64,000 nt of DNA, from positions 434,001 through 498,000 of the forward strand of contig NZ_JAKZFC010000002.1 in the NCBI RefSeq assembly GCF_022549215.1, in the 5' to 3' direction. Numbering within the stretch: the first letter of the stretch is position 1; each line of letters begins with the position of its first letter. Positions 30,505 through 63,894 of the stretch are shown here, in pieces. The notes beneath the pieces were generated by a model. That model was not told the origin of the DNA and ran no database searches. It saw only the letters and a list, made by a program, of their open reading frames with translations. Source of the DNA: Solibacillus palustris (GTDB lineage Bacteria; Bacillota; Bacilli; Bacillales_A; Planococcaceae). A program made the position numbers and the translations under genes.

Positions 30505-30642
30505 CTTCAACTATTGGGGGCTTTAGTTAAACAAGATCATCATTTCGATGGTCTATTTTTACGTCTAAGACATCAAAAAGGCTTCGGTGATCCATTATGA
30601 AATGTTACACTTAAACTAACGGGCAGTATAGTTGAAGAAAGG
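30505..30642 (+). repeat. R1 dispersed element, long variant (first copy)
   Basis: Starts CTTCAACTATTGGGGGC, ends AACTAACGGGCAGTATAGTT with GAAG. Between the two hairpin units is a terminator-like hairpin (GATCATCATTTCGATGGTC plus T run) and a tail ending in GAAATGTTACAC. The copy at 31951-32082 is the same long variant. It is the first R1 element in the window; I saw none to the left. Confidence 0.85.
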
Positions 30643-30697
30643 ACATAACATTAAATCGAAAAATAAAAAAATTAAAGACAGACAGGAGTTAGATACG

Positions 30698-31045
30698 ATG
30701 ATAAAAGGTTTCGGAGGAATATTTTGGAGAACTAAGAATATTGATGTTGTAAAAAAATGGTACGGTGAAGTGTTGAAGATTGATTTAGAAATTTGGAATG
30801 GGACTGTGATTAAACCCCAATTAGGAAATGAGACTATCTTTTCTTTCTTTACCGAGGATGACAGCTATTTTCCAACAGAACAACAAGTGATGTTAAATTT
30901 CCAAGTACATGATCTAAACGAGACTATTAAGCATCTTGAACAAATTGGTGTACCACTTGAAAAGGAAAAAGAGATTAGTGAATTTGGAACGTTTATTTGG
31001 ATTAAAGATCCTGAAGGTCGACTGATCGAGCTGTGGGAGAAATAA
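30698..31045 (+). CDS. VOC-family (glyoxalase/bleomycin-resistance fold) protein
   Basis: A protein of 115 residues made of two beta-alpha-beta-beta-beta modules. The start segment IKGFGGIFWRTKNIDVVKKW and the end FGTFIWIKDPEGRLIELWEK are typical, with the C-terminal Glu as a probable metal ligand. Substrate unknown; detoxification or antibiotic binding is common in the family. The open frame extends to 30632, but ATG 30698 follows GACAGGAG. It is flanked on both sides by R1 repeats. Confidence 0.85.
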   Translation: MIKGFGGIFWRTKNIDVVKKWYGEVLKIDLEIWNGTVIKPQLGNETIFSFFTEDDSYFPTEQQVMLNFQVHDLNETIKHLEQIGVPLEKEKEISEFGTFIWIKDPEGRLIELWEK

Positions 31046-31198
31046 CGGGATGTGAACATTTGTTATTAAGCTAACGATGGCAATACTTGAAGAACATTGC
31101 GATTTTGGAACAAAATTTTTTGTATAATATAAAGTACGTTCTTCAATTATTGTGCTGAAGTAGTTTACTTAACGGATAAGGCATTGTGAAAGAATGTA

Positions 31199-31290
31199 CT
31201 TAAACTAACGGGGGCTTTACTTGAAGATCTTTGAGTTGCATATGCAGCTCTTTTTTTATTATTGAACTAAAGAGGCAGGTTAGTTCAATT
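31199..31290 (+). repeat. R1 dispersed element, full bipartite copy
   Basis: CTTAAACTAACGGGGGCTTT, the terminator palindrome GAGTTGCATATGCAGCTC with a T run, then TTGAACTAAAGAGGCAGGTT and AGTTCAA. A degenerate unit (31139-31175) precedes it. It separates the VOC and GNAT genes and fills most of the 31046-31380 gap. Confidence 0.88.
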
Positions 31291-31380
31291 AGAAATTACT
31301 GGAATAATAATCTGATTGTTGTTAATGTTAAGATATCTATAGTTAATAACTATAGGAAAATCGAAAGAGGTGTGTGGATT

Positions 31381-31926
31381 ATGTTAGTACATAAGGTTGA
31401 TAATGAAGTTTCTTTGAGATTATTTAATAAAGATGATTCAGAAGAGTTCTATGATTTAACGATTAATTCAAAGGCTTATTTAAAAGAGTGGCTTGGTTGG
31501 CTCGATTATACAAAGAGTATAGAAGATACTGCACAAAATATTCAATCAAGATGTAATGAGCTTGTTGAAAATGGGGGATATCCACAATCATTTGCAATTA
31601 TATATAATGGGGAAATTGCTGGCACAATCGGATTTAATGAAATAAATAAGGCTAACAAATTAGGTGTTGTGGGATATTGGTTGGGTGAAAAATTTCAAGG
31701 GAAAGGTATAATGTCTAAAGCATTCAAAGCAGTAATTGATTACGGATTTAATGACCTTAAACTAAATCGAATTGAAGTTAGAATCGCAGTTGAAAATAAA
31801 AAAAGTAGAGCGCTTCCTGAAAGGTTCGGTTTCAAAAAGGAAGGGGAAATAAGACAAGCAGAGTGGTTATATGACCATTATGTAGACCACGTTATTTACG
31901 GGGTCTTGGCAATTGAATGGAAATAA
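31381..31926 (+). CDS. GNAT acetyltransferase, RimJ/RimL-like
   Basis: Acetyl-CoA-dependent N-acetyltransferase of 181 residues. The cofactor loop appears as GEKFQGKGIMSKAFKAV (about 105-121), preceded by the strand LGVVGYWL. NRIEVRIAVENKKSRALPER is the usual motif-B region of RimL-type enzymes that modify ribosomal proteins or small amines. ATG 31381 follows GAAAGAGGTGTG; the longer upstream frame runs through the R1 repeat and is not coding. Confidence 0.88.
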   Translation: MLVHKVDNEVSLRLFNKDDSEEFYDLTINSKAYLKEWLGWLDYTKSIEDTAQNIQSRCNELVENGGYPQSFAIIYNGEIAGTIGFNEINKANKLGVVGYWLGEKFQGKGIMSKAFKAVIDYGFNDLKLNRIEVRIAVENKKSRALPERFGFKKEGEIRQAEWLYDHYVDHVIYGVLAIEWK

Positions 31927-31950
31927 GCTATTCAAATGTTAAACACCCTA

Positions 31951-32082
31951 CTTCAACTAACGGGAGCTTAGTTAAACAAGACCATCATTTCGATGGTCTA
32001 TTTTTATGTCTAAAACATCAATTAGGCTTCGGTGATCCATTGTGAAATGTTACACTTAAACTAACGGGTAGGTTAGTTTAAG
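31951..32082 (+). repeat. R1 dispersed element, long variant
   Basis: Same layout as 30505-30642: CTTCAACTAACGGGAGC, internal hairpin GACCATCATTTCGATGGTC, and closing AAACTAACGGGTAGGTTAGT. The two long copies differ at a few scattered positions. Confidence 0.88.
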
Positions 32083-32137
32083 ATTCGCTTTCCGGAATAA
32101 TCAATCTTTAATTTGAAAATAGTAGTGATAAACAGGT

Positions 32138-32188
32138 AAAACCTCGAATTTTGAGCAAAAATATGCTCAAGATACGAGGTTTGTTTTT
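32138..32188. terminator. hairpin terminator
   Basis: AAACCTCG and TTGAGCA pair with GCTCAA and CGAGGTTT in a two-part stem, followed by GTTTTT. It stands between R1 and the next gene. Confidence 0.7.
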
Positions 32189-32328
32189 ACCTAGAAATTA
32201 AAAATTGTCTACCGGTTTTTTATATAAGTTTGCATTTTAGTTGAAGAAATATTTATTTTACAAATAGACATAAAAGAACATACATTCGTGTTATAGTTTA
32301 TTTGATAATACTAACAAGGGGGATAATT

Positions 32329-33366
32329 GTGAAATTAAAAAACATTAACATTCAAGAACGAATGAAACATTACAATGTGCAAGGTTTAAGTATTACATTG
32401 ATTGAGGGCGGTGAAATTAGTGGAACAGATAATCACGGTTTATTAGAAGTGGAAAGCAATAGAAAGGCAAATGAAGATTCTATTTTTAGTGCGTGTTCAA
32501 TTAGTAAGTTCTTAACAGGAATACTTGTAATGAAGCTAGTAGAGGATGGACTTCTTGATTTAGATGATGATGTGAATGGAAATCTTAAATCGTGGAAAGT
32601 ACCAGAAAATGATTTTACTAAAAATAAAAAAGTGACATTGAGGAATTTACTAAGTCATCAATCTGGAATTAAAGACCCTGAAGGTAGTTTTCCTGAACTG
32701 ATCTCGAAAATGGGTGTTACTTCGATGGTTGAATTATTAGAGGGGAAAACCCTTTATTGTAAAACTCCTATTGACGTCAAGTGTGAACCAGAAAGTGAAT
32801 TCCATTATTCGGATGCAGGTTTTTGTATTATTCAACAACTTATAGAAGATGTTACGAAAAAACCATTTCATCAAGTTATGAATGAGGAAATATTTGAACC
32901 ATTAGGAATGGCAAATAGCTATTTCAATACAACAATGTTGGAAGTAGATAGACAAAATTTTTCTGGTGGTCACAACAAAAACGGTGAATTAGTAGATGGA
33001 AAATTTCCTATATATCCTTATCCAGCGGCTTCTGGATTATGGACAACTTCTTTGAATTTAGCTGAATTAGTTCTTGAGTTAATGAATGCTGTAAAAGGTG
33101 AAAGCAAGGTTGGTATTTCGGAAAGTTTAGCAAAAGAAATGATAACCTCACAAAGAGGTAAAAGTTGGACTGGATTAGGTTTGTTTCTTGAAGGCTCAGA
33201 AAAAGAACTAGAAATTACATCACTTGGTTGGGGAGTGGGTTTTCAATGTATGATGGTGGCGTATCCGTATTTAGAAAAAGGTGCAGTCATAATGACGAAT
33301 GCAGAATTAGGTGTTCATCAAATGGAAGGTATTATAGGAGAAATATACAAATCACTTTTATCTTAA
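32329..33366 (+). CDS. serine hydrolase (class C beta-lactamase-like)
   Basis: A protein of 345 residues of the penicillin-binding/beta-lactamase fold. The Ser-x-x-Lys motif is SISK near residue 57, HQSGI near 109 marks the family, and the Tyr motif appears as HYSDAGFCIIQQL near 162. There is no signal peptide, so it is probably a cytoplasmic esterase or peptidase and not a lactamase. The GTG start at 32329 follows AAGGGGGA. A GNAT gene follows after 22 nt, probably in the same transcript. Confidence 0.87.
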   Translation: MKLKNINIQERMKHYNVQGLSITLIEGGEISGTDNHGLLEVESNRKANEDSIFSACSISKFLTGILVMKLVEDGLLDLDDDVNGNLKSWKVPENDFTKNKKVTLRNLLSHQSGIKDPEGSFPELISKMGVTSMVELLEGKTLYCKTPIDVKCEPESEFHYSDAGFCIIQQLIEDVTKKPFHQVMNEEIFEPLGMANSYFNTTMLEVDRQNFSGGHNKNGELVDGKFPIYPYPAASGLWTTSLNLAELVLELMNAVKGESKVGISESLAKEMITSQRGKSWTGLGLFLEGSEKELEITSLGWGVGFQCMMVAYPYLEKGAVIMTNAELGVHQMEGIIGEIYKSLLS

Positions 33367-33388
33367 AAAGTGTTAAGGGAGGAGAAAT

Positions 33389-33802
33389 ATGCAGATAGCC
33401 TTGGCAAATCCAACTCATATATCTGAAGTTGTATCGTTCTTCAACGAAAATTTAGAACGCAATAACAGTGCGGTCTATTCTGAAGAGTTTTTTTGTCCTT
33501 TTGGAGTTAAAGCAGCCATAAGAAGAAATCAAATGATAGTGGCAACAGTAGAAGGGCAAGTGGTAGGGGCTTTTCGGTTTTACCGAAAAAAAACTCAAAA
33601 CAGAATATCTTTATACCAATTTGCGATTAGTGAAATTTATCGCGGTCAAGGGTTATTAAAAAAGATGTTAAAAACGATAAATGATTTACCTATCATTTCA
33701 TTATGTCCGACTGATTCCGATTTTAATGATTATTATGATAAATCAGGATGGTATTTACAAGAACAAAATGAGGAATTTAATGTATGGATTTTTAATGACT
33801 GA
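33389..33802 (+). CDS. small GNAT-fold acetyltransferase
   Basis: A protein of 137 residues. The acetyl-CoA loop reads SEIYRGQGLLKKMLKTI near residue 84, and the beta strand before it is RISLYQFAI. Shorter than typical GNATs and with a reduced C-terminal part (SGWYLQEQNEEFNVWIF). The start follows AAGGGAGGAG. It is probably cotranscribed with the hydrolase gene. The substrate cannot be read. Confidence 0.78.
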   Translation: MQIALANPTHISEVVSFFNENLERNNSAVYSEEFFCPFGVKAAIRRNQMIVATVEGQVVGAFRFYRKKTQNRISLYQFAISEIYRGQGLLKKMLKTINDLPIISLCPTDSDFNDYYDKSGWYLQEQNEEFNVWIFND

Positions 33803-34148: not shown

Positions 34149-34211
34149 TGAGTTATACCAAAAATCGGAAATATATAATAGAAAATAAATTTTATAAAGA
34201 GGTGGAATTAT

Positions 34212-35174
34212 ATGCCTAAAATTGACAATATGTTAGCAATTCTATGGATGCTTCGTTCAGGTGAAAAAATTACTGCAAAACAAATTTCAGAAAAGTTAGA
34301 GATGAATATAAGGACTGTGTATCGTTATATTGATACAATTTCAACAAGTGGCGTACCTATAATTTCAGAACCAGGACATAACGGTGGATACACTTTATTG
34401 AATACTTTTATTGAGGCTCCTCTTTTTTTTGATTTTGAGGAGCAAACTTCACTTTATCATGCTGCTGTTTTTGCAGAAGAAGCTGGATATTATGGTGGCG
34501 AAGCACTAAATAGGGCTATTTCAAAGCTAAGCAAATATTCAAATCAAGAGCAGGAAACAAAGATAAACCAACATTTAACTAGTCTTGAAGTAATAAGCCG
34601 ATTAAGTTCACTCTCTATGGAACCTTTTTTGAAGGAGTTGGAGCAGGCCGTAGCTGACAGGTACTCAGTAAAAATTCTTTACCATAAAAGTGGCGAAAAG
34701 CAATTAAATTATAGATTGGTCGATCCGTACAGAATTATCTATTGGAATAACAAGTGGTATGTGATTGGATTTTGTCATCTTAGGAATGATATCCGTAGTT
34801 TTAGAGTAGACCGAATTGAAAGTCTAACGCTAACCGAAAATAAGTTTAACCGGCCAGAAAATTTTTCAGCACGTGACTTTTTTATAAAAAATCTTCTTCC
34901 AACTATAGAAGATAAGGAAGGGATTATTTCTTTGGTTATTAATGGGGATAAAAGTGTATTGGCTGATATTTGCCAACATTGGTTTTTAGGACATTATTTA
35001 CAAGAACGGACTTCAAATCAAGCAGTTTTTCTTCTTGAAAAAGATATGATACATACATATGTACCTTATTTACTTTTACCGTACAATAAATCTATTAAAG
35101 TTATTGAGCCAATAAGTCTTAAGAAAAGACTTATTGAAGTTCTGTCGGAACTAATAAAATTTCATCAAGTATGA
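34212..35174 (+). CDS. HTH-WYL transcriptional regulator
   Basis: A protein of 320 residues of the YafY/YobV type. The N-terminal HTH_11 (about 1-60) has KITAKQISEKLEMNIRTVYR. The WYL domain (about 140-225) reads RLVDPYRIIYWNNKWYVIGF. A C-terminal WCX-like extension completes it. Such proteins sense a small ligand or nucleic acid. The next gene (DJ-1/PfpI) follows after its terminator and is a likely target. AAAGAGGTGG precedes the ATG. Confidence 0.88.
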   Translation: MPKIDNMLAILWMLRSGEKITAKQISEKLEMNIRTVYRYIDTISTSGVPIISEPGHNGGYTLLNTFIEAPLFFDFEEQTSLYHAAVFAEEAGYYGGEALNRAISKLSKYSNQEQETKINQHLTSLEVISRLSSLSMEPFLKELEQAVADRYSVKILYHKSGEKQLNYRLVDPYRIIYWNNKWYVIGFCHLRNDIRSFRVDRIESLTLTENKFNRPENFSARDFFIKNLLPTIEDKEGIISLVINGDKSVLADICQHWFLGHYLQERTSNQAVFLLEKDMIHTYVPYLLLPYNKSIKVIEPISLKKRLIEVLSELIKFHQV

Positions 35175-35212
35175 TAACTTCCCTGACGTTAACTGTCAGG
35201 GAAGTTATTTTA
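35172..35212 (+). terminator. intrinsic terminator of the WYL gene
   Basis: ATAACTTCCCTGAC (35174-35187) pairs perfectly with GTCAGGGAAGTTAT (35195-35208), overlapping the stop codon and followed by T. Confidence 0.92.
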
Positions 35213-35249
35213 TAATAGTCTATATCAATTGTGATTGGAGTGTTATTGG

Positions 35250-35882
35250 ATGCAAACAAAAAAAGTTTATCTTTATGTTTTTAATACAATGTCAGACTGG
35301 GAATATGGATATTTAATTGCTGAACTAAACTCAGGAAGATATTTCAAAAAAGATTTAGCACCTTTAAAAGTAATTACAGTAGGAGCTAATAAAGAAATGA
35401 TTACTACTATGGGAGGACTGAGCATAAAACCAGATATTTCCCTTGATGAATGTATTCTTGAGAGTAAAGATCTTTTAATTTTACCAGGAGGGACTACTTG
35501 GAGTGAAGAAATTCATCAACCTATCTTGGAGAGAATTGGCCAAGCTTTAAAGCTTGGCACTATTGTTGCTGCAATTTGTGGTGCAACTGATGCCCTCGCG
35601 AATATGGGATACTTGGATACTAGAAAGCATACAAGTAATAACTTAGAATATACTAAAATGGTATGTCCTAACTATAAAGGAGAAAAGTTCTATGAGTTGG
35701 GATCTGCGGTATCTGATGCGAATTTAGTTACTGCATCAGGAATAGCTCCTCTGGAATTTGCAATGGAGGTACTGAAAAAAATAGATGTATTTACACCAGA
35801 TGCATTACATTCATGGTATAATCTAAATAAGACTCATAAACCTGAATACTTCTTCCAGTTAATGAATTCAATAAATAAATGA
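35250..35882 (+). CDS. DJ-1/PfpI family protein
   Basis: A protein of 210 residues with a class I glutamine-amidotransferase-like fold. The catalytic nucleophile is Cys110 in AAICGATDALANMG, and LLILPGGTTWSEEI near 75 supplies the Glu side. Members include chaperones, deglycases and proteases; the exact role cannot be read. ATG 35250 follows TTGGAGTG. It is downstream of a WYL regulator in the same orientation and has its own terminator. Confidence 0.88.
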   Translation: MQTKKVYLYVFNTMSDWEYGYLIAELNSGRYFKKDLAPLKVITVGANKEMITTMGGLSIKPDISLDECILESKDLLILPGGTTWSEEIHQPILERIGQALKLGTIVAAICGATDALANMGYLDTRKHTSNNLEYTKMVCPNYKGEKFYELGSAVSDANLVTASGIAPLEFAMEVLKKIDVFTPDALHSWYNLNKTHKPEYFFQLMNSINK

Positions 35883-35989: not shown

Positions 35990-36240
35990 AATTGATCTTG
36001 AAAGTCATAAGATAGAATATATTCAGTATAAAACAGGTTATTTATAACGTTCAAATTACCTATACAATAGATGTGGAATTATTCCCTCACTCAAAAATCA
36101 AACCCACGAATTTTGAAAACTCGTGGGTTTCTTTTCTTTTTTAAAATCGATGTTTATAGCATACGTTTAATCAAACTTTATTCTAAAGCTACATTTTGAA
36201 CTAACGGGGGCTTTACTTGAAGATCATTGAGTTGCAAATG
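35990..36240 (+). pseudogene. 3'-end relic of a second cupin cassette, with its terminator and R1 head
   Basis: This stretch aligns almost end to end with 49190-49450: the last part of the cupin coding region (ATTGATCTTG, then AGATAGAATATATTCAG and TTCAAATTACCTATACAATAG), the shared spacer, the hairpin at 36100-36137, the sequence ATCAAACTTTATTCTAAAGC, and the start of R1. About 20 bases are deleted in the coding part and the rest of the gene is gone. So a paralogous cupin cassette once stood here. Confidence 0.8.
36100..36137 (+). terminator. terminator of the lost cupin gene
   Basis: AAACCCACGA pairs with TCGTGGGTTT, followed by a C/T-rich tail. The homologous hairpin after the intact cupin gene (49317-49350) carries compensating and non-compensating changes. 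Confidence 0.85.
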
Positions 36241-36288
36241 CAGCTCTTTTTTCTTATTCAACTAACGAGGCAGTTTACTTCAAGAAGG
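36196..36288 (+). repeat. R1 dispersed element, full bipartite copy
   Basis: TTGAACTAACGGGGGCTTTA, palindrome GAGTTGCAAATGCAGCTC plus T run, then TTCAACTAACGAGGCAGTTT and ACTTCAAGAAGG. It lies 58 nt before the methyltransferase start. Confidence 0.88.
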
Positions 36289-36345
36289 AGTTATATTCTA
36301 TTTCGTAGAATTAATAGTTAAAAGTATATAAAGGAAGTGGAATTA

Positions 36346-37101
36346 ATGGACGTAAATACCGATTTTTTGAACATCAATAAGGAAAGCTGGGAGAAATCAG
36401 CAGAACGTTTTTTTGGAAGAACTGCTCTTCCAGAATATGGTCCCTTTTCTTTGAGCGAAGAACAACTTAAATTATTTGGTAATATTTCAAATCAAAAGGT
36501 ATTAGATATTGGGTGTGGTAGTGGGCACTCGTTACAATATATGGGTAACCATGGAGCAAATGAACTGTGGGGATTAGACCTTTCAACAAAACAAGTAGAA
36601 ACAGCTAATAAATTGCTGCGTAATCAACAAGTCAAAGTATCATTATTTGAGTCTCCAATGGAGGAAAATCCAGGATTACCAAGCAATTACTTCGATATTG
36701 CTTATTCTATTTATGCATTAGGGTGGACTGTTGATTTACAACGTACATTGTTAAATATCCATAACTATTTAAAGCCAGGTGGGATTTTTATCTTTAGTTG
36801 GGAACACCCTATTCACGACCGTTTGAAATATGAACAGTCATCGTTTACCTTCAATAAATCTTACAATGTAGAAGGTCCCGAATACAACGAAGCGTGGCAT
36901 AATAATGTTGTAATATATCATAGAAAATTAAGTACATATATTAATACTTTAATCGAATCTGGTTTCACAATTGAAAAAGTCATAGACGATGTTATGCTAC
37001 CTGAAGACGAATCTTCGGATAATCCTTCAAGATGGTACTCAACTCAAAAAGCAGAATTAGTACCTGCAACTTTTATAATAAAAGCATCCAAAAAGCATTA
37101 A
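36346..37101 (+). CDS. class I SAM-dependent methyltransferase
   Basis: A soluble protein of 251 residues. SAM motif I is KVLDIGCGSGHSLQYMG near residue 50, motif II is near ELWGLDLSTKQVE, and motif III is LKPGGIFIFSWEHP near 143. Substrate unknown; small-molecule methyltransferases of this type are frequent in accessory DNA. ATG 36346 follows AAAGGAAGTGG. Flanked by R1 copies on both sides, so it is a single-gene unit. Confidence 0.9.
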   Translation: MDVNTDFLNINKESWEKSAERFFGRTALPEYGPFSLSEEQLKLFGNISNQKVLDIGCGSGHSLQYMGNHGANELWGLDLSTKQVETANKLLRNQQVKVSLFESPMEENPGLPSNYFDIAYSIYALGWTVDLQRTLLNIHNYLKPGGIFIFSWEHPIHDRLKYEQSSFTFNKSYNVEGPEYNEAWHNNVVIYHRKLSTYINTLIESGFTIEKVIDDVMLPEDESSDNPSRWYSTQKAELVPATFIIKASKKH

Positions 37102-37133
37102 AAAAATTATCCCTATATATTTATTCAACTAAC

Positions 37134-37216
37134 AGGGCTTTACTTGAAGATCATTGAGGTGCATATGTACCTCATTTTTTCTTATTGAATTAACGGGGCA
37201 GTTTAGTGCAACAAGG
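37134..37216 (+). repeat. R1 dispersed element, full bipartite copy
   Basis: TTCAACTAACAGGGCTTTAC, palindrome GAGGTGCATATGTACCTC (both arms changed together relative to other copies, so pairing is kept), then TTGAATTAACGGGGCAGTTT and AGTGCAACAAGG. Confidence 0.88.
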
Positions 37217-37318
37217 GGTACCTTCAAAATTTTGGGGATTTACAACGCTAAGTTAAGAAATGTGACCAAAATAACTTATGCTAAACTTTAGTAAATTTTT
37301 TAAGAAAGAAGGAACATA

Positions 37319-37759
37319 ATGAATTATATTAAATCTTTACGACAACACATTGGTACAAGACCAATAATTGCACCAGGGTCTGCAATTATTGTTTTGAATG
37401 AAAAGAATGAAATATTATTACAATTACGTTCAGATACAAATGATTGGGGGCTTCCTGGTGGCGGAATGGAAATTGGAGATAGTTTTGAAGAAACCGCTCA
37501 AAAAGAATTATTTGAAGAAACAGGATTAATCGCTCAAGAATTGATATTAGTTGGATTAGCATCTGGAAAAGAATTATATTATAAGTTCCCTCATGGGGAT
37601 GAAATTTACAATGCAACTGCGATTTATAAAACTACAAGTGTAACTGGTACTATTAAGAAAAATGAAGAAAGCAACGCATTAAAATATTTCTCTTTAGACA
37701 AACTTCCTAATCTAAATTATACAACTTTAAAGTTACTTGAAAAGGTTGGCTACATTTAA
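37319..37759 (+). CDS. NUDIX hydrolase
   Basis: A protein of 146 residues. The NUDIX box starts GGGMEIGDSFEETAQKELFE and closes EETGL (about residues 47-69), with all catalytic Glu and Arg-position features except that Lys replaces the usual Arg before ELFEETG. It probably hydrolyses a nucleoside diphosphate derivative. AAAGAAGGA precedes the ATG. It is a single gene after an R1 element, with a long strong hairpin (37935-37980) further downstream. Confidence 0.9.
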   Translation: MNYIKSLRQHIGTRPIIAPGSAIIVLNEKNEILLQLRSDTNDWGLPGGGMEIGDSFEETAQKELFEETGLIAQELILVGLASGKELYYKFPHGDEIYNATAIYKTTSVTGTIKKNEESNALKYFSLDKLPNLNYTTLKLLEKVGYI

Positions 37760-37934
37760 AGTGATTAATCTGAAACAGTTATTTCTTTAATTTAATGGCC
37801 TGCTATAATAATTAGTCATAACAGTATCTTTATGAAACTTAGAAAATAATCTATAGAATGAACTGTATTAATATAAATATTAGTACTTACTAATTACTCA
37901 ATAACGTTCCCAAATGTAAGCTAGGGAACATTTC

Positions 37935-42571: not shown

Positions 42572-42614
42572 ATGATAAAATAATGTTAGTACAAGCAAAC
42601 AATCGAGGTAAATT

Positions 42615-53206: not shown

Positions 53207-53255
53207 CATAAATGTTTGAAAGGTGTTGCAGAGCTACTCAAATGCATATGTTATT

Positions 53256-53312
53256 CCACAATCGGGCGCGATTGTTGAATAAGTGATTCTTTTCTTCTTC
53301 AACTAAACCAGC
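53256..53312 (+). repeat. R2 unit joined to R1 start
   Basis: CCACAATCGGGCGCGATTGT then TGAATAAG, then CTTCTTCAACTAAACCAGCC: an R2 hairpin followed by the first bases of an R1 unit. Confidence 0.72.
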
Positions 53313-56127: not shown

Positions 56128-56134
56128 ATTGCTT

Positions 56135-56228
56135 GTTCAACTAACGGGGGCTTTACTTGAAGTTCATTGAGTTGCATATGCAGCTCTTTTTTCTTATTGA
56201 ACTAACGGAGCAATTTAGTTGAAGAAGG
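56135..56228 (+). repeat. R1 dispersed element, full bipartite copy
   Basis: TTCAACTAACGGGGGCTTTA, CTTGAAGTTCATT, palindrome GAGTTGCATATGCAGCTC with T6, then TTGAACTAACGGAGCAATTT and AGTTGAAGAAGG. This is close to the consensus. Confidence 0.92.
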
Positions 56229-56247: not shown

Positions 56248-56709
56248 GTGATTAGAATTAGAGGCATAACTTTTGAAATTCCAAATGGTTATGGGAAATA
56301 TTTGTTTGAAATTTTAAATGATATAGAAATTAATGGATTGACTTGGCGGATTGGGGGTGGTGAATCTTATATAAAAGAAAATGGGGAACCACTATTTCCA
56401 TCTCTGTGTACAGTAAATGGGGAAACCTTACACGAGATAATTTCAAATGAAGAGTATTATCTTATATTCGTCGATTTAAAGGCATTTCCAAATAAGTTAG
56501 ATGTAAAAGAAATTTCGACTTATCAAGAATTTGTTAAAAGTGAATGTCAATTCGTACTCTTATTAATCGATTCATCATATGTAACGATTTATTCAAAAGA
56601 CCAAAACATAATTCAGCAATTGTTTTCTAAGGGAGTGAGTGCTGGTTATGAAAATATAGAGTATATTACAGATGAAAATGATAGAAATAAAACGTTGATA
56701 GCTTTTTAA
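56248..56709 (+). CDS. DUF2691 protein
   Basis: A soluble protein of 153 residues matching DUF2691 (start IRIRGITFEIPNGYGKYLFE). Function unknown. GTG at 56248 is the only good start; its ribosome-binding site (TCATGGGG) is weak. Single gene between two full R1 copies. Confidence 0.78.
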   Translation: MIRIRGITFEIPNGYGKYLFEILNDIEINGLTWRIGGGESYIKENGEPLFPSLCTVNGETLHEIISNEEYYLIFVDLKAFPNKLDVKEISTYQEFVKSECQFVLLLIDSSYVTIYSKDQNIIQQLFSKGVSAGYENIEYITDENDRNKTLIAF

Positions 56710-56755: not shown

Positions 56756-56848
56756 CTTCAACTAACGGGGGCTTTAGCGGAAGATCATTGATTTTCAATG
56801 CAGCTCTTTTTTCTTGTTCAACTAACGAAGCAGTTTAGTTGAACAAGG
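56756..56848 (+). repeat. R1 dispersed element, full bipartite copy
   Basis: CTTCAACTAACGGGGGCTTT, an altered centre (GATTTTCAATGCAGCTC, pairing reduced), T6, then TTCAACTAACGAAGCAGTTT and AGTTGAACAAGGG. Confidence 0.9.
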
Positions 56849-56884
56849 GTCTTTGTTTTTTATGTTGACAAGGAGGTGAAATAT

Positions 56885-57322
56885 TTGAAAAGGGACTGTG
56901 TGTTTATAAGATTCAGTATAGTAGCTGATGTATGGCCAATTGAGGCATTTACAACTGAAATTGGAATCAATCCAACAGAAGCCTATAAAATTGGAGATAA
57001 TTATATTCGTGGGACAAGACAAAGTAAGCGATTTGAAACAGTATGGAGCTTGGAATCTGGAGAAATGAAGTTACATTATGAAATAAATATGGATAGTGAA
57101 TTTGAATCTCTGATTGCTCCGTTAAGACCACATATCAAATTAATTAATGAATACAAGGAAAAATATCAACTGACTTGTATTTTTTTCGTCCATTATAATT
57201 TTTATAACGCTCAAACACCGGGAAGGCGTTTAGATCCAAGCATAATCGCTTTTGCACATAGTATCGGTGCTATAATCGACATTTATATTGATAACGAAAC
57301 GGACTGGGATGACGAGGAATGA
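56885..57322 (+). CDS. DUF4279 protein
   Basis: A soluble protein of 145 residues matching DUF4279 (RFSIVADVWPIEAFTTEIGI at the start, FAHSIGAIIDIYID near the end). The domain is often found in immunity-type or accessory proteins; its function is unknown. TTG 56885 is placed 8 nt after AAGGAGG; a GTG at 56876 overlaps the site. One-gene unit flanked by R1. Confidence 0.82.
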   Translation: MKRDCVFIRFSIVADVWPIEAFTTEIGINPTEAYKIGDNYIRGTRQSKRFETVWSLESGEMKLHYEINMDSEFESLIAPLRPHIKLINEYKEKYQLTCIFFVHYNFYNAQTPGRRLDPSIIAFAHSIGAIIDIYIDNETDWDDEE

Positions 57323-57360: not shown

Positions 57361-57454
57361 CTTAAAGTAACGAGTGCTTTAGTGAAAATCCGTTGAGCTG
57401 CTTAAGCAGCTCTTTTTTCTTATTCAACTAACGGGGTAGGGTAGTGAAGTAAGG
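57361..57454 (+). repeat. R1 dispersed element, full bipartite copy
   Basis: CTTAAAGTAACGAGTGCTTT, palindrome GAGCTGCTTAAGCAGCTC (perfect, all pairs kept with different bases) with T6, then TTCAACTAACGGGGTAGGGT and AGTGAAGTAAGG. Confidence 0.9.
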
Positions 57455-57516: not shown

Positions 57517-58278
57517 ATGCCGTTGACTTTTGCTCATCCAGCAGCAGTTTTACCTTTTTCAAGAAATAGTGAATATGTTAATTTCCTTGCATTGGTATTA
57601 GGTAGCATGTCACCTGATTTTGAGTATTTCCTACGAGGAAAGCCATATGGTGAGATTGGTCATACATTCTTTGGATTTATAGCTTTTAATCTTCCTATCT
57701 TAGTAGTCGTTTATTTTATTTATCAAACATGTATACATAGGACCTTATTTAGTCATTTGCCATCTGTATTGCAAGATACATATAATCAAAAAACAAGTTC
57801 ACCTAGTTTGTTTAAAATATTTGTATTTTTGTATTCTGCATTATTTGGAATGCTAACTCATATAGTCTGGGATTCGTTCACTCATTTTGGAGGATTTATG
57901 GTGACAAATTTATCAATCCTTTCTTATACTGTTCATATTTTTGATTTTAATATCCCAATCTTTAAGTTTCTTCAGCACGGTAGCACAATAGTTGGTATTA
58001 CTGTGATCATAGTATATATGTACTTTCGAACAGCAAGGAATAGATATAATAGTAATGAGACTACAAGACCCAAACAAAAATTCAAGTATTGGGGTAAAAT
58101 AGCATTGTTAACTGCACTTTTGTTTTGTTTATGGTATTTCATTGATAGAGTTTCGATTGAATTTTATGGCATTATTGTTGTTCGAATAATAGATTCAGCT
58201 TTGATTAGTTTGTTAGTTGTTTCATTATATTTTAATCACTTTAATAGAGAAAAGACAGGAGATCTTTTATTAAAGTAA
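57517..58278 (+). CDS. DUF4184 membrane protein
   Basis: A membrane protein of 253 residues with about six spans. The N-terminal PLTFAHPAAVLPF with conserved His and LGSMSPDFEYFLRG, then LTHIVWDSFTH, match DUF4184, which resembles metal-dependent membrane hydrolases (YdjM type). The role is unknown. ATTCTAGGAGTG precedes the ATG. Its last codons run into the next R1 element. Confidence 0.87.
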   Translation: MPLTFAHPAAVLPFSRNSEYVNFLALVLGSMSPDFEYFLRGKPYGEIGHTFFGFIAFNLPILVVVYFIYQTCIHRTLFSHLPSVLQDTYNQKTSSPSLFKIFVFLYSALFGMLTHIVWDSFTHFGGFMVTNLSILSYTVHIFDFNIPIFKFLQHGSTIVGITVIIVYMYFRTARNRYNSNETTRPKQKFKYWGKIALLTALLFCLWYFIDRVSIEFYGIIVVRIIDSALISLLVVSLYFNHFNREKTGDLLLK

Positions 58279-58358
58279 TGGGTGCTTTAGCAAAACAAGT
58301 GGCTGCCTTTAGGGGTAGCTTTTTCTTCTGGAACTAATGTGGCAGTTTAGTTCAATAA
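58268..58358 (+). repeat. R1 dispersed element overlapping a stop codon
   Basis: TTAAAGTAATGGGTGCTTTA, GTGGCTGCCTTTAGGGGTAG with T run as the central hairpin, then GGAACTAATGTGGCAGTTTA and GTTCAA. The TAA of the DUF4184 gene lies inside the left unit. Confidence 0.82.
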
Positions 58359-58377
58359 AAATAATTTTAAAATACCC

Positions 58378-58427: not shown

Positions 58428-58829
58428 TTGAGATATAGAATTAGTGAACTTGCTGAAAAGTGTAATGTAAATAAAGAAACAATTAGATACTACGAAAAGA
58501 AAGGTTTACTTTCTGAACCATCCCGAACAGATTCAGGATATAGGGTTTATTCAGATGATACTGTTAATCGCATAAATTTTATCAAACGAATGCAAGACTT
58601 AGGATTTTCTTTAGCAGAAATTAATAAATTACTTGGAGTTGTTGATAAAGATAATGAAAGATGTAGGGATATGTATGACTTTGTAAGTCAAAAAATTGAT
58701 GATGTACAAGACAAAATTAGAGATTTAAAACGAATTGAAAACATGCTAATAAAATTAAAAGAATGTTGTCCTGATGAAAAATCCCTACATGAATGTCCTA
58801 TTATTGAAACATTAATGAATCGTAATTAA
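58428..58829 (+). CDS. merR: mercury-responsive MerR regulator
   Basis: A protein of 133 residues. The winged HTH (about 1-70) starts YRISELAEKCNVNKETIRYY. The dimer helix follows. Cys79, Cys114 and Cys123 are exactly the three Hg(II) ligands described for Bacillus MerR, and an extra Cys113 is adjacent. The start is TTG after TGGAGGGATT. It autoregulates from the dyad promoter just upstream and is cotranscribed with the metallochaperone gene. No merA, merB or merT follows. Confidence 0.92.
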   Translation: MRYRISELAEKCNVNKETIRYYEKKGLLSEPSRTDSGYRVYSDDTVNRINFIKRMQDLGFSLAEINKLLGVVDKDNERCRDMYDFVSQKIDDVQDKIRDLKRIENMLIKLKECCPDEKSLHECPIIETLMNRN

Positions 58830-58842
58830 AGGTGGGAAAACG

Positions 58843-59304
58843 ATGGATTGTTGTAGTAGTAAGGTTAATAAAGTAAAAATAGAAAATGATGGTATTTGTC
58901 CAACTTGTAATAATAAAGCAAAAAACGTAAAGTTGATTACACTAAAGTCATTACTTAAACCGACCGCATTAGAAACTTTAAATGCAAATGTAAATCACTA
59001 TTTCTGTTCAAGCAAAGAGTGTGATGTAGTTTATTTTGATACTGATAATAAGAAGTATTTTACATCTGATACAAAGGTTGCTTTACATCAAAAAGATGAC
59101 TACGTAACGACACCTATTTGCTATTGCTTTGACTGGACAAAAGAGAAACTTGAGAATTATGTAAAACAAGAACTTTTCCCTAATCCAATTGAACATATTC
59201 GAGAAAATATAAAGGAAAACCGATGTGGTTGTGAGGTAAACAATCCACAAGGGAGTTGCTGTTTGGGTAATGTTACAAAGTATATAAAAAGTATTAAAAG
59301 TTAA
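58843..59304 (+). CDS. CopZ-type Fe-S/zinc metallochaperone
   Basis: A Cys-rich protein of 153 residues resembling the N-terminal domain of Archaeoglobus CopZ. Clusters: CC at 3-4, CPTC near 20, CSSKEC near 55, CYCFDW near 89, and RCGCEVNNPQGSCCLGNV near 126-143. Such proteins bind a [2Fe-2S] cluster and zinc and help deliver copper. Here it lies 13 nt after merR under a MerR promoter, so mercury or another soft metal is the likely inducer. AAAGGTGGG precedes ATG. Confidence 0.85.
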   Translation: MDCCSSKVNKVKIENDGICPTCNNKAKNVKLITLKSLLKPTALETLNANVNHYFCSSKECDVVYFDTDNKKYFTSDTKVALHQKDDYVTTPICYCFDWTKEKLENYVKQELFPNPIEHIRENIKENRCGCEVNNPQGSCCLGNVTKYIKSIKS

Positions 59305-59385
59305 TTTGAATCTTTAACTCCCCATGAAAGAACATAATAATCTTTTATTCTTTGTGGTGAAGTGGTGATTTTTGCGCTTCATGGA

Positions 59386-59452
59386 TGGCTAACGGGTGCT
59401 TTCGTATTATATAGTTCAGCCAGAACTTTCTGGTTGAACTTTTTTTATTTAG
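59386..59452 (+). repeat. R1-like fragment with terminator
   Basis: GGCTAACGGGTGCTTT, then AGTTCAGCCAGA pairing with TCTGGTTGAACT, followed by T7. It ends the merR operon. Confidence 0.7.
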
Positions 59453-59985: not shown

Positions 59986-60034
59986 TATGAATGAAATAAC
60001 ACACTCTTCGGATAGTTAAAAATCGCCTGAAGTT

Positions 60035-60397
60035 TTAAAATAATAAGTTATTCCAAAAGGAGTTACTTCTCTTGCGTCGGTGATTTCGCGAAGTACGACG
60101 TATCCTGCTCGTGCGTCGATGTTTTCGCGAAGTACGACGTACGCTGCTCGTGCGTCGGTGATTTCGCGAAGTACGACGTATCCTGCTCGTGCGTCGATGT
60201 TTTCGCGAAGTACGACGTACGCTGCTCGTGCGTCGGTGATTTCGCGAAGTACAATGTACCCTGCTCGTGCGCCGTTGTTTTCGCGAAGTACGACGTACCC
60301 TGCTCGTGCGACGTTCGTTACTAATAGGATCTTGGTGCATAAAGTGACCTAACCCTAAGTTGTTGGCCCTTTCTGCTGCATTTTGTATAAATGACAT
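60035..60397 (-). CDS. CotG-like Arg/Ser-Thr repeat spore-coat protein
   Basis: A protein of 120 residues. After a 35-residue lead, the rest is a tandem array with a 13-residue period (39 bp in DNA): RRTSRKHRRTSRI alternating with RRTSRNHRRTSSV, about six units, then a short basic tail. B. subtilis CotG has the same build, 13-residue basic Ser repeats, and is divergent from cotH; here too CotH is divergent. The Thr-Ser in each unit are candidate CotH phosphorylation sites. ATG 60397 follows GGAGGG. Shadow frames on both strands are caused by the repeats. Confidence 0.85.
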   Translation of the reverse strand: MSFIQNAAERANNLGLGHFMHQDPISNERRTSRVRRTSRKQRRTSRVHCTSRNHRRTSSVRRTSRKHRRTSRIRRTSRNHRRTSSVRRTSRKHRRTSRIRRTSRNHRRKRSNSFWNNLLF

Positions 60398-60576: not shown

Positions 60577-61668
60577 GTGGATAAAGATAGAATAATACCT
60601 GAATATCAGCTTTTTATTCATCCTTTAGATTTAAGTGAACTTCGGAAAGATATATGGTGTGATGATCCTATCCCTGCCAAGCTAACGATTAATAAAAGAA
60701 AGTATGATATTGATATCGCCTACCGTGGCTCACATATCCGAGGTTTTCGAAAGAAGTCGTATCACATTTCGTTTAATAAACCCAGTACTTATAGAAATAC
60801 CAAAGAAATTCATATCAACGCAGAATATAAAGATCCTTCTCTCTTAAGAAATAAACTATCGCTAGATTTTTTCAATGAAATAGGATGCTTATCGCCAAAA
60901 TCCCAATTTATAAATATGAAATTGAATGGGAAAAATGAGGGGGTATATTTGGAATTAGAATCAGTGGATGAGCATTTCCTAAAGAATCGACAACTACCGC
61001 AAGGACCAATATTCTATGCGGTTGATGGCGATGCTAACTTTTCATTGATGAGTGACCTTGATAAAGAAGTAAAGAAATCACTTAATGTTGGCTATGAACT
61101 AAAATATGGGACGGAACAAGATGAATTTCATTTGCAAAAAATGATTATTGAAATTAATACTATTCCAAAAGATGAATTTGAGAATGAAATTGTAAAATAT
61201 CTCAACGTTGATCAATATCTTATTTGGTTAGCAGGCGTTGTTTTCACCCAAAATTTTGATGGTTTTGTTCATAATTATGCATTGTACCAGAATAGCGAAA
61301 CTAGGCTATTCGAAATCATCCCGTGGGATTACGATGCAACATGGGGAAGGGATGTAAACGGGAAAGTGATGGAGGAGGACTATTTAAGAATCGAAGGATT
61401 TAATACGCTTACCGCAAGAATTCTCGACGTAAAAACATTTCGACATCAATACAAAAATTTGCTAATAGTTATTTTAAACAACCAATTTAATGTAGACTAT
61501 TTGAAACCGAAAATACAAGGTATGCATGATTTAATAAGGCCTTATATTGAAAAAGATCCTTATAAAAAAGACGATATCCATTTATTTGATAAGGAACCAG
61601 AGTATATATTGGATTTTATTGAAGCACGGGCTAAATATATAAAAAGGAAATTAGATTCATTAGATTAA
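60577..61668 (+). CDS. cotH: spore-coat protein kinase CotH
   Basis: Secretory-type atypical kinase that phosphorylates basic Ser-rich coat proteins (CotB, CotG) in Bacillus. A protein of 363 residues with a typical CotH core: RGSHIRGFRKKSYHISFNKP near residue 50, YLELESVDEHFL near 129, QNFDGFVHNYALY near 226 and the metal-binding IPWDYDATWGRD near 247. The start is GTG 60577. Divergent from the CotG-like gene across 179 nt; I could not assign SigK or SigE boxes with confidence. A terminator follows. Confidence 0.92.
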   Translation: MDKDRIIPEYQLFIHPLDLSELRKDIWCDDPIPAKLTINKRKYDIDIAYRGSHIRGFRKKSYHISFNKPSTYRNTKEIHINAEYKDPSLLRNKLSLDFFNEIGCLSPKSQFINMKLNGKNEGVYLELESVDEHFLKNRQLPQGPIFYAVDGDANFSLMSDLDKEVKKSLNVGYELKYGTEQDEFHLQKMIIEINTIPKDEFENEIVKYLNVDQYLIWLAGVVFTQNFDGFVHNYALYQNSETRLFEIIPWDYDATWGRDVNGKVMEEDYLRIEGFNTLTARILDVKTFRHQYKNLLIVILNNQFNVDYLKPKIQGMHDLIRPYIEKDPYKKDDIHLFDKEPEYILDFIEARAKYIKRKLDSLD

Positions 61669-61688
61669 GTTGTTGCATCATCTTACAA

Positions 61689-61761: not shown

Positions 61762-61950
61762 ATAAGGTTAATAGAATTATTAAACTTAGAGAACTTAGTC
61801 GCAGATGTAATTGTTCAATTTTTAACAAAAGAAGATTTAGTATCAAAGAAAACTAAGCAAGAATTACATCAGTATTTTGAGGAATTAAAGTACTCAATTA
61901 ATACTTCTCAATCCACCCATAATGTGCAACAATCGGGCGCGATTGTTTAA
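61762..61950 (+). pseudogene. C-terminal remnant of an unidentified gene
   Basis: An open phase without a start: RLIELLNLENLVADVIVQFL, TKEDLVSKKTKQELHQYFEE, then STHNVQQSGAIV and a stop. The last eight codons are R2 sequence, so the original gene was cut and its frame closed by the repeat. Family not recognised. Confidence 0.45.
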
Positions 61951-62061
61951 TAAGCGTCTCTGTTCTTATTCAACTAACGGGGGGCTTTACTTGAAGATCA
62001 TTGAGTTGCATATGCATCTCTTTTTTCTTATTAAACTAACGAAGCAGTTTAGTTGAACAAG
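61927..62061 (+). repeat. R2 unit joined to full R1 copy
   Basis: CAACAATCGGGCGCGATTGT (R2), 15 nt, then R1: TTCAACTAACGGGGGGCTTT, GAGTTGCATATGCATCTC with T6, and TTAAACTAACGAAGCAGTTT, AGTTGAACAAG. Confidence 0.9.
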
Positions 62062-62192
62062 TAGGAATAGAAGATTATTTTAAGCAGATATACCAAAGCG
62101 GAATTTTAAATTTTATCACTATATTGAATGGAAATCTGAAAAAAGTGAAGTAAGTGAGGTGTGAACTAAATATGTGTATGAGTAAAGAAATA

Positions 62193-62298: not shown

Positions 62299-62418
62299 TT
62301 AATACGATCCATGCATGAAACTAGCACCGACAATAATTAGAAGAATGAACAGTACTACGATTAAAGCGAATGGGTTTCGTTCGCGACGTTCTTCGCGAAA
62401 TTCTCCGCCATATTCCAT
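62299..62418 (-). CDS. YjcZ-family sporulation micro-protein
   Basis: A protein of 39 residues: an acidic/basic head MEYGGEFREERRERNP, then the hydrophobic FALIVVLFILLIIVGAS, which is the hallmark of the YjcZ/YtrH-like small sporulation proteins, then FMHGSY. It is a single TM peptide. AAGAAGGGG lies 7 nt before the ATG. It is shorter than most gene-finder limits. It fits the coat/sporulation group around it. Confidence 0.88.
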   Translation of the reverse strand: MEYGGEFREERRERNPFALIVVLFILLIIVGASFMHGSY

Positions 62419-62452
62419 AAAAAACCCCTTCTTTCTATACCCTGCAATAGTT

Positions 62453-62932
62453 ATGTATTTTGTTTATCGTTATAATAAAAAATTGGCGAATCAAATAAAT
62501 AGTAAAGCAGTCATGGCGGCTGCAAAAGATAATATTTCGGATGCTTGGGTAAGTATAGGAACAGCAATAGGTATATTTGGATCTCAACTAAATATGCCTT
62601 GGCTAGATACTATAACTGCGATTATTGTAGGTTTATTAATTTGTAAAACAGCTTGGGATATTTTTAAAGAAGCTTCTCATGAGCTTTCAGATGGATTTGA
62701 TGTAGATAAAATTGAACTTTATCGGAATGTAATCACAAAAGTAGATGGAATTAAGGGGATTAAAGAAATTAGAGGGAGAAACTACAGTAGTAATGAAGTA
62801 ATAGATGTTGTAATCCTTGTTAATTCTACGTTAGGTATTAAAGAAGCTCATGATATTGCTACCCATGGTGAAAAAGTCATGATGAAAGATTATGGTGTCT
62901 ATGATGTTCATGTTCATGTAGAGCCAAATTAA
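62453..62932 (+). pseudogene. cation diffusion facilitator, 3' fragment
   Basis: The C-terminal 160 residues of a CDF metal exporter: NSKAVMAAAKDNISDAWVSI carries the TM5 Asp pair, TITAIIVGLLICKTAWDIFK is TM6, and the cytoplasmic ferredoxin-like domain ends YDVHVHVEPN. TM1-4, with the other half of the transport site, are missing; sequence upstream belongs to the YjcZ gene on the other strand. An ATG at 62453 exists but no ribosome-binding site, so it is not expected to work. Confidence 0.82.
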
Positions 62933-62985
62933 TTAATATATATAATGAAACTATAACATAAGTTTTCATCCACTTTTAACAGATA

Positions 62986-63030
62986 CAAAAAAAAGGATTC
63001 CTTGAACGGCGTGAACCGTCTCGGAATCCT
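62986..63030 (-). terminator. intrinsic terminator of the repeat-protein gene
   Basis: AGGATTCC pairs with GGAATCCT around a 21-nt loop; on the minus strand a run of eight T follows. Its strength supports the gene being real. Confidence 0.9.
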
Positions 63031-63041
63031 CCTGTTCCAAT

Positions 63042-63365
63042 TTATCTAGGAAAACCGGGAAACATTGGGTTTCCGAAACCGGGGAACATTGGGTTTCCAA
63101 ATCCGGGAAACATTTGGTTTCCGAAACCGGGGAACATTGGGTTTCCAAATCCGGGAAACATTTGGTTTCCGAAACCGGGGAACATTGGGTTTCCAAATCC
63201 GGGAAACATTTGGTTTCCGAAACCGGGAAACATTGGGTTTCCAAAACGAGGAAACATTGGGTTTCCAAAACGAGGAAACCTTTCGTTTTCAAAACGAGGG
63301 AAAAATTGGGGTCTAAAACCGGGTAACCTTTGCTGTTCTATATTAAAACGCATCGGATTAAACAC
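63042..63365 (-). CDS. FPGFGN octapeptide-repeat protein, probable coat component
   Basis: A protein of 107 residues. The first 30 residues are basic and aromatic (FNPMRFNIEQQRLPGFRP), followed by about nine copies of an 8-residue unit, MFPGFGNP alternating with MFPGFGNQ, ending FPGFPR. The DNA repeats with a 48-bp period made of two 24-bp halves. It has no signal peptide and contains no Cys. GTG 63365 follows ATGGAGG. I do not know the family; the neighbours (CotG-like, CotH, YjcZ) suggest a spore-surface polymer. Plus-strand frames here are shadows. Confidence 0.75.
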   Translation of the reverse strand: MFNPMRFNIEQQRLPGFRPQFFPRFENERFPRFGNPMFPRFGNPMFPGFGNQMFPGFGNPMFPGFGNQMFPGFGNPMFPGFGNQMFPGFGNPMFPGFGNPMFPGFPR

Positions 63366-63606
63366 TTTTTACCTCCATTCTTAGGTTATAGTGTAGGCTA
63401 TGTTTAATTAATGGAGTGGCTTAGACTAAGACCTATATTTGAAATCTATATATGGAACTATTTAGGATTGTTCCGCAAATCCCCACTTATATAGCTACTC
63501 ACCAATTATGCATCTAGAAATAAGTATTCATTACCATATCTGTTGTTTTGAAACTAAAATGTATTGTTAAATCTAATTTACTTAAGGGCAATGAAAATGG
63601 CCGATA

Positions 63607-63817
63607 TTAGTCAATGAGATTTATAGAGAGGTCTTTCAATAGGTTACTAAACTTATAGGAAGTCTCTTTTTTTATGTTCTTTGTCATGTGTGCGTATATG
63701 TCCATTGTCGTATTAATATCGGAGTGTCCGAGCCATTATTGTATCTCCTTGATGCGTACATTGGCCTCAATTAGTAATGAAGTATGTGTATGTCTGAAAG
63801 AGCGCGAAGTTATTTGT
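63607..63817 (-). pseudogene. tyrosine recombinase C-terminal relic
   Basis: The minus strand reads SFRHTHTSLLIEANVRIKEI, Q, stop, then WLGHSDINTTMDIYAHMTKN and a tail to a stop at 63607. HTH, LGH and the nucleophile Tyr of DIYAHM are the integrase motifs. An in-frame TAA and loss of the N-terminal two thirds disable it. It differs from the 45.1 kb relic. Confidence 0.85.
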
Positions 63818-63832
63818 TTTTCTATGGAATGT

Positions 63833-63894
63833 TTTCACTATGCATATGCAGCACTTTTTTCTTTATTGAACTAATGGAGCAGGTTAGTTGAATA
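63833..63894 (+). repeat. R1 right part
   Basis: CTATGCATATGCAGCAC with T6, then TTGAACTAATGGAGCAGGTT and AGTTGAA. The left unit is missing where the integrase relic begins. Confidence 0.82.

Follow-up and report, generated by a model that had tools for sequence, protein, structure and literature searches.

The window analysed here comprises 64,000 nucleotides (nt) of the Solibacillus palustris genome (referred to as G000; 3.99 Mb in 42 contigs; G000:C12:434001-498000). At about 30.5 kb a conserved backbone gives way to an array of mostly single genes with unrelated functions, which are separated by copies of a repeat designated R1. We describe the repeat, the genes between its copies, and a tyrosine recombinase by which these genes may have been exchanged.

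The R1 repeat

R1 consists of two cores of about 28 bp, A followed by B, which stand in direct orientation and enclose an intrinsic-terminator module of about 60 bp, visible as a hairpin with a T-run (core A, ACTAACGGGKGCTTTASTT; core B, ACTAACGGGGCAGKTTAGTT). Each core is built from inverted arms of about 10 nt (TTNAACTAAC and GTTAGTTNAA) around a spacer of 6 nt in A and 7 nt in B. The two cores differ in spacer and right arm, their patterns being TTNAACTAAC-GGGKGC-TTTASTTNAA for A and TTNAACTAAC-GGGGCAG-KTTAGTTNAA for B. Nine copies of about 93 nt in the window show a mean column identity of 83% and reach 69-111 bits with an R1 model built from them. The copies at 30505 and 31951 score lower (28.7 and 25.7 bits) because of their longer filler, and a partial copy at 63833 reaches 41 bits. 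Repeat searches, alignment and R1 model agree on copies at the positions listed in a preliminary description of the window. In that description R1 had been regarded as a terminator-flanking unit with occasional halves. Units do lie around the terminator, but R1 is made of two separate cores and several of the halves are single cores.

At a strict cut of the core finder (at least 79% of the maximum score) 27 cores were found on the + strand to the right of 30.4 kb, none to the left and one on the - strand, in line with the reported absence of R1 from the left 30 kb. A looser cut (score 14) gave 37 cores on the right, 4 on the left and 16 on the - strand, 9 of the latter being + strand cores read backwards. 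Since shuffling of the window yielded similar numbers at this score (mean 8.8, maximum 15 matches per strand over the whole window), the loose matches in the left part are at chance level. The motif TTCAACTAA had 93 matches with one mismatch allowed, against 41 expected (standard deviation 6.9). No Rfam family scored above its gathering score at R1. The only Rfam match of the window is a Bacillaceae-1 RNA at 13624-13690 (+, 70.9 bits).

Genes and cores of the array

For comparison we used the complete genome G140, which the search tool labels as the same species; about 340 kb around its arrays were included, and the comparison is that of one same-species pair. All features of the array named below lie on the + strand unless stated otherwise.

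The border between conserved backbone and array is formed by the first core, of A type (30506-30531), inside which homology with G140 ends. A second core detected by the core finder (30611-30636) closes a module with long, terminator-type filler and overlaps a VOC-like gene module (30632-31045), named so in the preliminary description and without Pfam match at E ≤ 0.001. Its listed TTG start falls within the core, and the true start is probably located downstream. A full R1 follows (31199-31290, with A core 31200-31225, terminator hairpin and B core 31262-31288) and then a GNAT acetyltransferase module (31381-31926), for which the ATG at 31381 was read from the sequence, the longer listed open reading frame (ORF) beginning within R1. 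The long-filler R1 at 31952-32081 is a twin of 30506-30636 (91% identity across 116 nt). Further downstream lie a beta-lactamase-family serine hydrolase together with a GNAT protein (32302-33802), and a WYL regulator together with a DJ-1/PfpI protein (34172-35877), the latter block recurring in a different G140 array stretch (96% identity). Full R1 copies at 36196-36288 (A 36196-36221, B 36257-36283) and 37124-37216 (with an A core spacer shorter by one base) enclose an S-adenosylmethionine (SAM) methyltransferase module (36337-37101). A NUDIX hydrolase module (37319-37759) follows, and the block 37121-37920 is found in G140 13 kb past the same border (93.5%).

After another full R1 (42480-42572) four single cores were detected: an A-type core at 43731-43750, which ends a block shared with G140 (43229-43737, 96%), a B-type core with degenerate right arm at 45111-45134, a B core at 48564-48590 and an A core with partial terminator at 49411-49436. 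A UPF0176/rhodanese gene block (47151-48502) again recurs in a different G140 array stretch (97.5%). Between 49.5 and 56.1 kb no core passes the strict cut, so that the presence of R1 in almost every intergenic space, as first described, was too strong a statement. This core-free stretch contains a DUF3841 gene, a histidine kinase, a beta-lactamase-family protein, IS110 and an APH gene. The IS110-family transposase is encoded at 53524-54669 (-), and 265 nt next to it (54667-54931) match copies of a 1.8-kb repeat of the complete genome G009 at about 99% identity. The APH-family phosphotransferase module (55252-56127) belongs to a segment (55169-56223) that is found, including the terminator, in a different G140 array stretch (96.7%).

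In the last part of the window, full R1 copies at 56136-56228 (A 56136-56161, B 56197-56223), 56757-56848, 57362-57454 and, diverged, 58270-58360 alternate with a DUF2691 module (56248-56709), a DUF4279 module (56876-57322) and a DUF4184 module (57517-58278). They are followed by a module for a MerR regulator and a CopZ-type zinc-binding protein (58428-59304), a single A core (59384-59407), a CotH kinase-like gene (60577-61668), a full R1 (61969-62062) and a single B core with partial terminator (63866-63892). The left flank of the A core at 59384, ATGGATGGC, is found elsewhere too: it stands directly before or at CTAACGG in several A cores (window 59375-59390, locus L011 at 8685, locus L012 at 10273) and may represent a module end that they share. 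Another palindromic core family, Unit C (AACAATCGGGCNNGATTGTT), occurs at 53254-53283 and 61925-61954 and also at 47158, 50050 and 59711. It often adjoins A or B cores, and its exact pattern is present in 24 of 121 family genomes. Tandem repeats of 39-bp units (60027-60338) and 24-bp units (63003-63354) were also observed.

Comparison within the species

Window positions 6804-30525 align collinearly with G140 as six segments (92.7-97.7% identity), G140 having an additional 9.3 kb between 27208 and 27347. Homology then stops within the first core, its last position being 30525; G140 has the same left half of this core, followed by a different filler. Beyond 30525, six blocks of the window match four array stretches of G140, one of them located 13 kb past the same border. 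For 33 G000 cores a homologous flank of 100 nt or more exists in G140, and none of them has kept both neighbours there. As long flanks hide a gene kept with its 60-bp terminator, linkage was recounted with 40-nt flanks, and both neighbours were then kept at 7 of 38 cores, four A and three B. Two of the four A cores represent a gene kept with its own terminator, and at the three B cores the common terminator, or something close to it, forms the left side. Linkage across cores is rarely kept within the species, and the content of the array varies between the two strains of this pair, as it does in integron cassette arrays.

Module types and breakpoints

A set of array loci was assembled (1.89 Mb), which contains only sequences with full R1, each oriented to its dominant strand. 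The array strand carries 721 B and 577 A cores, the other strand 10 B and 18 A cores. Intervals from B to A have a median length of 724 bp, and a + strand ORF is present in 262 of the 320 intervals of 300-1500 bp. Intervals from A to B have a median of 62 bp; a hairpin followed by a T-run was found in 192 of 264 A-B fillers of 40-130 bp compared to 7-12 in five shuffles. Three kinds of modules can be distinguished: single-gene cassettes, mostly reaching from B to A, intrinsic terminators of about 60 bp from A to B, and the recombinase gene, likewise from A to B.

Breakpoints were collected from 378 homologous blocks (at least 92% identity and at least 150 nt), multi-copy blocks and ends at contig borders being dropped. 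Of the 262 left ends, 78 lie no further than 25 nt from a core at both loci, and of the 262 right ends 105, compared to 0 of 524 random positions; 43 left and 35 right ends are close to a core at one locus only. Single cores were used for this analysis because pairs of full R1 sites gave only 16 links. A pairing of cassettes between full sites gave 6 pairs. The links used for breakpoints and linkage are not independent events.

For core B the per-base identity switches inside the spacer. With the left flank alone shared (63 links, including recombinase-adjacent ones), identity drops to background after ACTAAC, and with the right flank alone shared (31 links), it rises at the right edge of the spacer; the variable positions -6 and -5 show background identity whichever flank is shared. 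Strand exchange at the borders of the spacer would be expected to give this pattern. At core A the switch is less abrupt because similar terminators prolong the match. In part, the left-end breakpoints at A cores arise artificially from R1 similarity past the B crossover, and they were not used for the conclusion on the spacer.

The two sides of a core are rarely inherited together. Among core pairs with a homologous flank of at least 150 nt (recombinase-adjacent ones excluded), 146 share only the left flank, 101 only the right flank and 3 both. The same left flank can precede a gene, a terminator or a recombinase module. Seventeen links combine the same left flank with a core typed as A at one location and as B at the second; 14 of them were left after reading by eye (one locus had been counted twice and two cores were mis-typed), and 2 of these 14 have a recombinase module as the alternative. 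The idea of portable terminators in the preliminary description was half right, as the terminator, enclosed by an A and a B core, behaves like a unit that can be exchanged, but genes are exchanged too.

R1 and a dedicated recombinase in related genomes

An R1 covariance model gave 79 matches at E ≤ 0.01 in G000 (150 of 1429 first-look candidates were scored), the weakest of them being near chance. The array of 34 kb is real, but it is only part of this larger system. Nearly all matches are grouped in about a dozen clusters, each on one strand and several at contig ends. The copies are clustered and located at block borders and not evenly spread without a link to gene gain or loss, the pattern that had been named as an argument against gene capture. 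Seven of 41 genomes (G000 and 40 relatives) contain R1 at E ≤ 0.001 (72, 93, 97, 42, 6, 1 and 1 matches), and 34 have none. Among the matches listed for the complete genomes G009 and G140, R1 changes from the + strand to the - strand at about 1.8-2.1 Mb, as expected if its orientation follows the direction of replication around a terminus at this deduced position.

Profile searches revealed 18 phage-integrase-family matches in G000. Within an array, at C12:7274-8110, an intact recombinase of 279 amino acids is encoded in the orientation opposite to that of the cores; a fragment is located at C12:23013-23495. For this protein, termed here the cassette recombinase, the best named model is NF040815 (XerA-like; 222.1 bits at a cut-off of 220), and the nearest solved chains are XerC-like 4a8e and XerD 1a0p. 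Its R, K, HxxR, H and Y positions align with those of XerD, and we take these residues to be catalytic with the same roles. No protein of G000 reaches the cut-off of 265 bits of the IntI model TIGR02249. The cassette recombinase scores 89.4 bits, and only the flanks of a gap at about model positions 180-234, presumably the extra domain of IntI, are aligned; the host's other tyrosine recombinases align similarly. The preliminary description had noticed no integron integrase. The window indeed holds only a 32%-identical remnant, but an intact cassette recombinase is present on the same contig. The remnant, a broken tyrosine recombinase gene at 63649-63825 (-) beside the last core, was rejected as a relic of the cassette enzyme on account of this low identity (32% over residues 221-278).

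Close homologues of the cassette recombinase (best matches 83-100% identical, some broken) are present in all five of the 41 genomes with at least six R1 matches, and the two genomes with a single R1 have none. Relatives of 51-67% identity occur in three genomes without R1; in the remaining ones the best match does not exceed about 36%. Named genomes were scanned as well and yielded 77 recombinase loci in Psychrobacillus, Lysinibacillus, Sporosarcina, Paenisporosarcina, Viridibacillus, Neobacillus, Peribacillus and others, and the 48 loci with a near-full match were examined. The 36 loci of the main clade contain 131 R1 sites (score >25) opposite to the recombinase strand and 0 on the same strand; at the 12 loci of a group with 61-65% identity, 2 sites are opposite and 23 on the same strand. 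At most main-clade loci the recombinase gene lies between an A core with its own terminator and a B core about 77 nt from the start. The sequence is conserved up to this recombinase-proximal B core and variable past it, L082 and L087 being without B core. An A core at one end and a B core at the other, both within 260 nt, were detected by the core finder in 17 of 30 intact recombinase rows (L079 and G018 represent a single locus). A tree of 54 rows places the 42 recombinases of these groups in a single clade (support 100/99), separate from the host Xer proteins; some of the branches outside it are long. At L077, near 5490, foreign sequence replaces the usual 3′ terminator and A core of the recombinase and resembles, as we assume, the end of a group II intron.

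In a set of 121 family genomes, 36 have the exact core B pattern and 37 a recombinase match at E ≤ 1e-38. Exact B cores were found in 18 of 19 genomes with a recombinase of the clade with at least 80% identity (some with fragments only) and in 18 of 102 without (Fisher p ~1e-10, species not being independent). Core letters vary with the recombinase clade: in the group with 60-65% identity the right arm of B is of GATAG type in 13 of 30 cores (16 of 247 elsewhere), and A cores have a spacer-side G in 7 of 8 cases (7 of 212 elsewhere). Unit C (AACAATCGGGCNNGATTGTT) was considered as target of recombinases with 62-68% identity, which the family-wide pattern count did not support.

A proposed recombination mechanism

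The anatomy of R1, the strand bias, the breakpoints at cores, the rarely conserved linkage and the co-occurrence with a recombinase are read directly from the DNA. On these grounds we consider it highly probable that site-specific recombination via a dedicated Xer-like tyrosine recombinase has assembled a chromosomal array of exchangeable modules to which the region belongs. Each module would begin with the right half and end with the left half of a core of about 28 bp. The cassette recombinase, which we infer to be the catalyst, most likely recognises the arms in double-stranded form, with strand exchange taking place in the spacer, and modules would be inserted, excised and reshuffled by recombination of cores, possibly via a circular intermediate. 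The core beside the recombinase promoter may act as an attI-like entry point, and terminator modules between genes probably insulate neighbouring cassettes. The earlier suggestion of recombination sites for gene capture is well supported by the breakpoints at cores, the rarely kept linkage and the recombinase embedded in arrays.

Insertions were screened with 220-nt flanks starting from cores, and the screen could thus only see sites having a core; in four pairs modules were gained and one core was kept. Three of the four lie at the recombinase-proximal core and comprise 495 bp (cores BAB), 2146 bp and 2509 bp. An early version of the screen gave 243 events, nearly all false, as the shared flank was a multicopy terminator, and a unique-flank filter was too strict (0 events).

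Several observations do not fit this mechanism easily. Three insertion events are few for an entry core, and the two spacer lengths (6 and 7 nt) would be unusual for partners of one double-strand exchange. No core is near either locus at 141 of 262 left and 122 of 262 right block ends, and of the 240 cores that blocks touch, 22 are spanned by a block with 40 nt on either side (13 of 106 A, 9 of 134 B). The link between enzyme and site is associative. Recombinase relatives of 62-68% identity are present in 13 genomes, with exact cores in 2 of them (one each), and G119 has a recombinase but no exact core. Of the other 89 genomes, 16 have exact B cores, 12 of these only 1-4; the exceptions are G098 (59), G140 (15), G103 (14) and G069 (8). 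All four are without recombinase match at E ≤ 1e-38, although G140 has 44 R1 matches. Core-bearing genomes of this kind may contain arrays that lost the enzyme.

Much of the organisation described above is shared with integrons: arrays of single, mostly co-oriented genes with unrelated functions and a content changing within the species, a tyrosine recombinase in the array, a putative attI-like entry core beside its promoter, outer boxes ending CTAAC...GTTAG and a layout of two boxes, hairpin and two boxes. R1 could accordingly be an attC site of a true integron or of a cluster of attC sites lacking an integrase (CALIN), recombined as folded single strand by an IntI encoded elsewhere. We regard this as unlikely, considering that all G000 proteins stay below the IntI cut-off and that many breakpoints lie at single cores without a partner site. 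Furthermore, arm pairs show no covariation, neither local nor nested, in 264 A-B pairs (z between -1.8 and 2.1 in 15 of 16 tests); the remaining test (z -4.8) speaks against pairing. A folded attC was rejected for this reason, and the lack of covariation suggests that the cores are probably protein-recognised double-stranded sites. In contrast to integrons the recombinase is Xer-like, its gene is itself a module with two cores that may sit within an array or on a plasmid, and terminators are separate modules. According to PMC9024848, a single complete integron and a few CALIN are reported in Firmicutes.

Slightly less likely still is a mobilisation of the modules by host XerC/XerD, similar to the pdif modules of Acinetobacter. 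The size of the cores and their layout resemble dif sites (two inverted arms of about 11 bp, spacer of 6-8 bp), and G098 and G140 have many cores but no dedicated enzyme. Nevertheless, tyrosine recombinases of about 30-36% identity, by inference XerC/XerD-like, are present in 41 of 41 genomes, whereas the cores are patchy and follow the dedicated recombinase. This enzyme belongs to the same protein family as XerA, XerC and XerD but forms a separate, well-supported and patchily distributed clade. Neighbouring sites of pdif/dif modules stand in alternating inverted orientation, whereas A and B cores are direct repeats of two kinds, form long arrays and are associated with a dedicated recombinase and terminator modules. 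The system works like an integron but departs from integrons in two defining tests and from pdif modules in one. The bounding sites of about 28 bp with two inverted arms are a common feature, pdif sites being described in PMC12907356 as having a 6-bp central region.

Homologous recombination or natural transformation between dispersed repeats could likewise produce a mosaic with scrambled gene order in which R1 is passive, and the copies are alike enough for short homology (83% mean column identity). Such an origin is very improbable in view of breakpoints at single cores of 20-28 bp, the switch within the spacer of core B, the strict strand bias and the recombinase between cores in many genera. 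Least probable of all is a miniature inverted-repeat transposable element (MITE), a repetitive extragenic palindrome (REP)-type repeat or a portable terminator inserted by a transposase, for which palindromic ends, intergenic position, multiple copies and the IS110 transposase of the window could be quoted. The sequences to the left and right of a core vary independently of each other, and exchange involves genes as well as the repeat. The four insertions found kept one core and gained modules, in a screen that could see only sites having a core; the MITE family proposed in the preliminary description is not supported.

Cores on plasmids and resistance genes

Site-specific recombination by a dedicated enzyme would extend beyond chromosomes. 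A plasmid-borne recombinase with 95% identity (H1) was found in Sporosarcina psychrophila, and 83 plasmid records contain core matches at E ≤ 1, although chance may account for the weakest of them; reversed-sequence controls for plasmid cores gave 0 matches. In pC194, catA (1001-1651, locus coordinates) is bordered by a B core at 935 and an A core at 1807. In pKKS627, B cores at 2845 and 3411 flank dfrK (2919-3410), and a MazG-domain gene of this plasmid has a B core at 3788 on one side and an A core at 4257 on the other. The cassette recombinase may have placed catA and dfrK on these plasmids. Primers named for cat contain core letters in PMC4403831, PMC2440758 and PMC3675131.

Taken further, and with a fair margin of doubt, the data favour a third natural gene-cassette platform independent of integrons and pdif modules. 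It would be widespread in Bacillales chromosomes and plasmids, use its own Xer-derived recombinase on double-stranded cores, treat genes, terminators and recombinase as interchangeable modules, and be the source of the staphylococcal plasmid genes catA (pC194) and dfrK (pKKS627). No published description of this cassette system was found in searches of the open-licence literature of PubMed Central. Spore-forming bacteria would then possess a gene-swapping system that works like an integron, a candidate answer to the question of how Firmicutes, in which integrons are extremely rare according to PMC9024848, assemble repertoires of single adaptive genes. It would also suggest a source of two long-known Gram-positive resistance genes, explain the core letters in the cat primers of cloning papers and make modular terminators an unusual way of insulating acquired genes. 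With one recombinase, one core of about 28 bp and predictable junctions the system is directly testable. A gene flanked by a B and an A core was also observed in a plasmid record of Klebsiella grimontii (L177), which is labelled Gram-negative.

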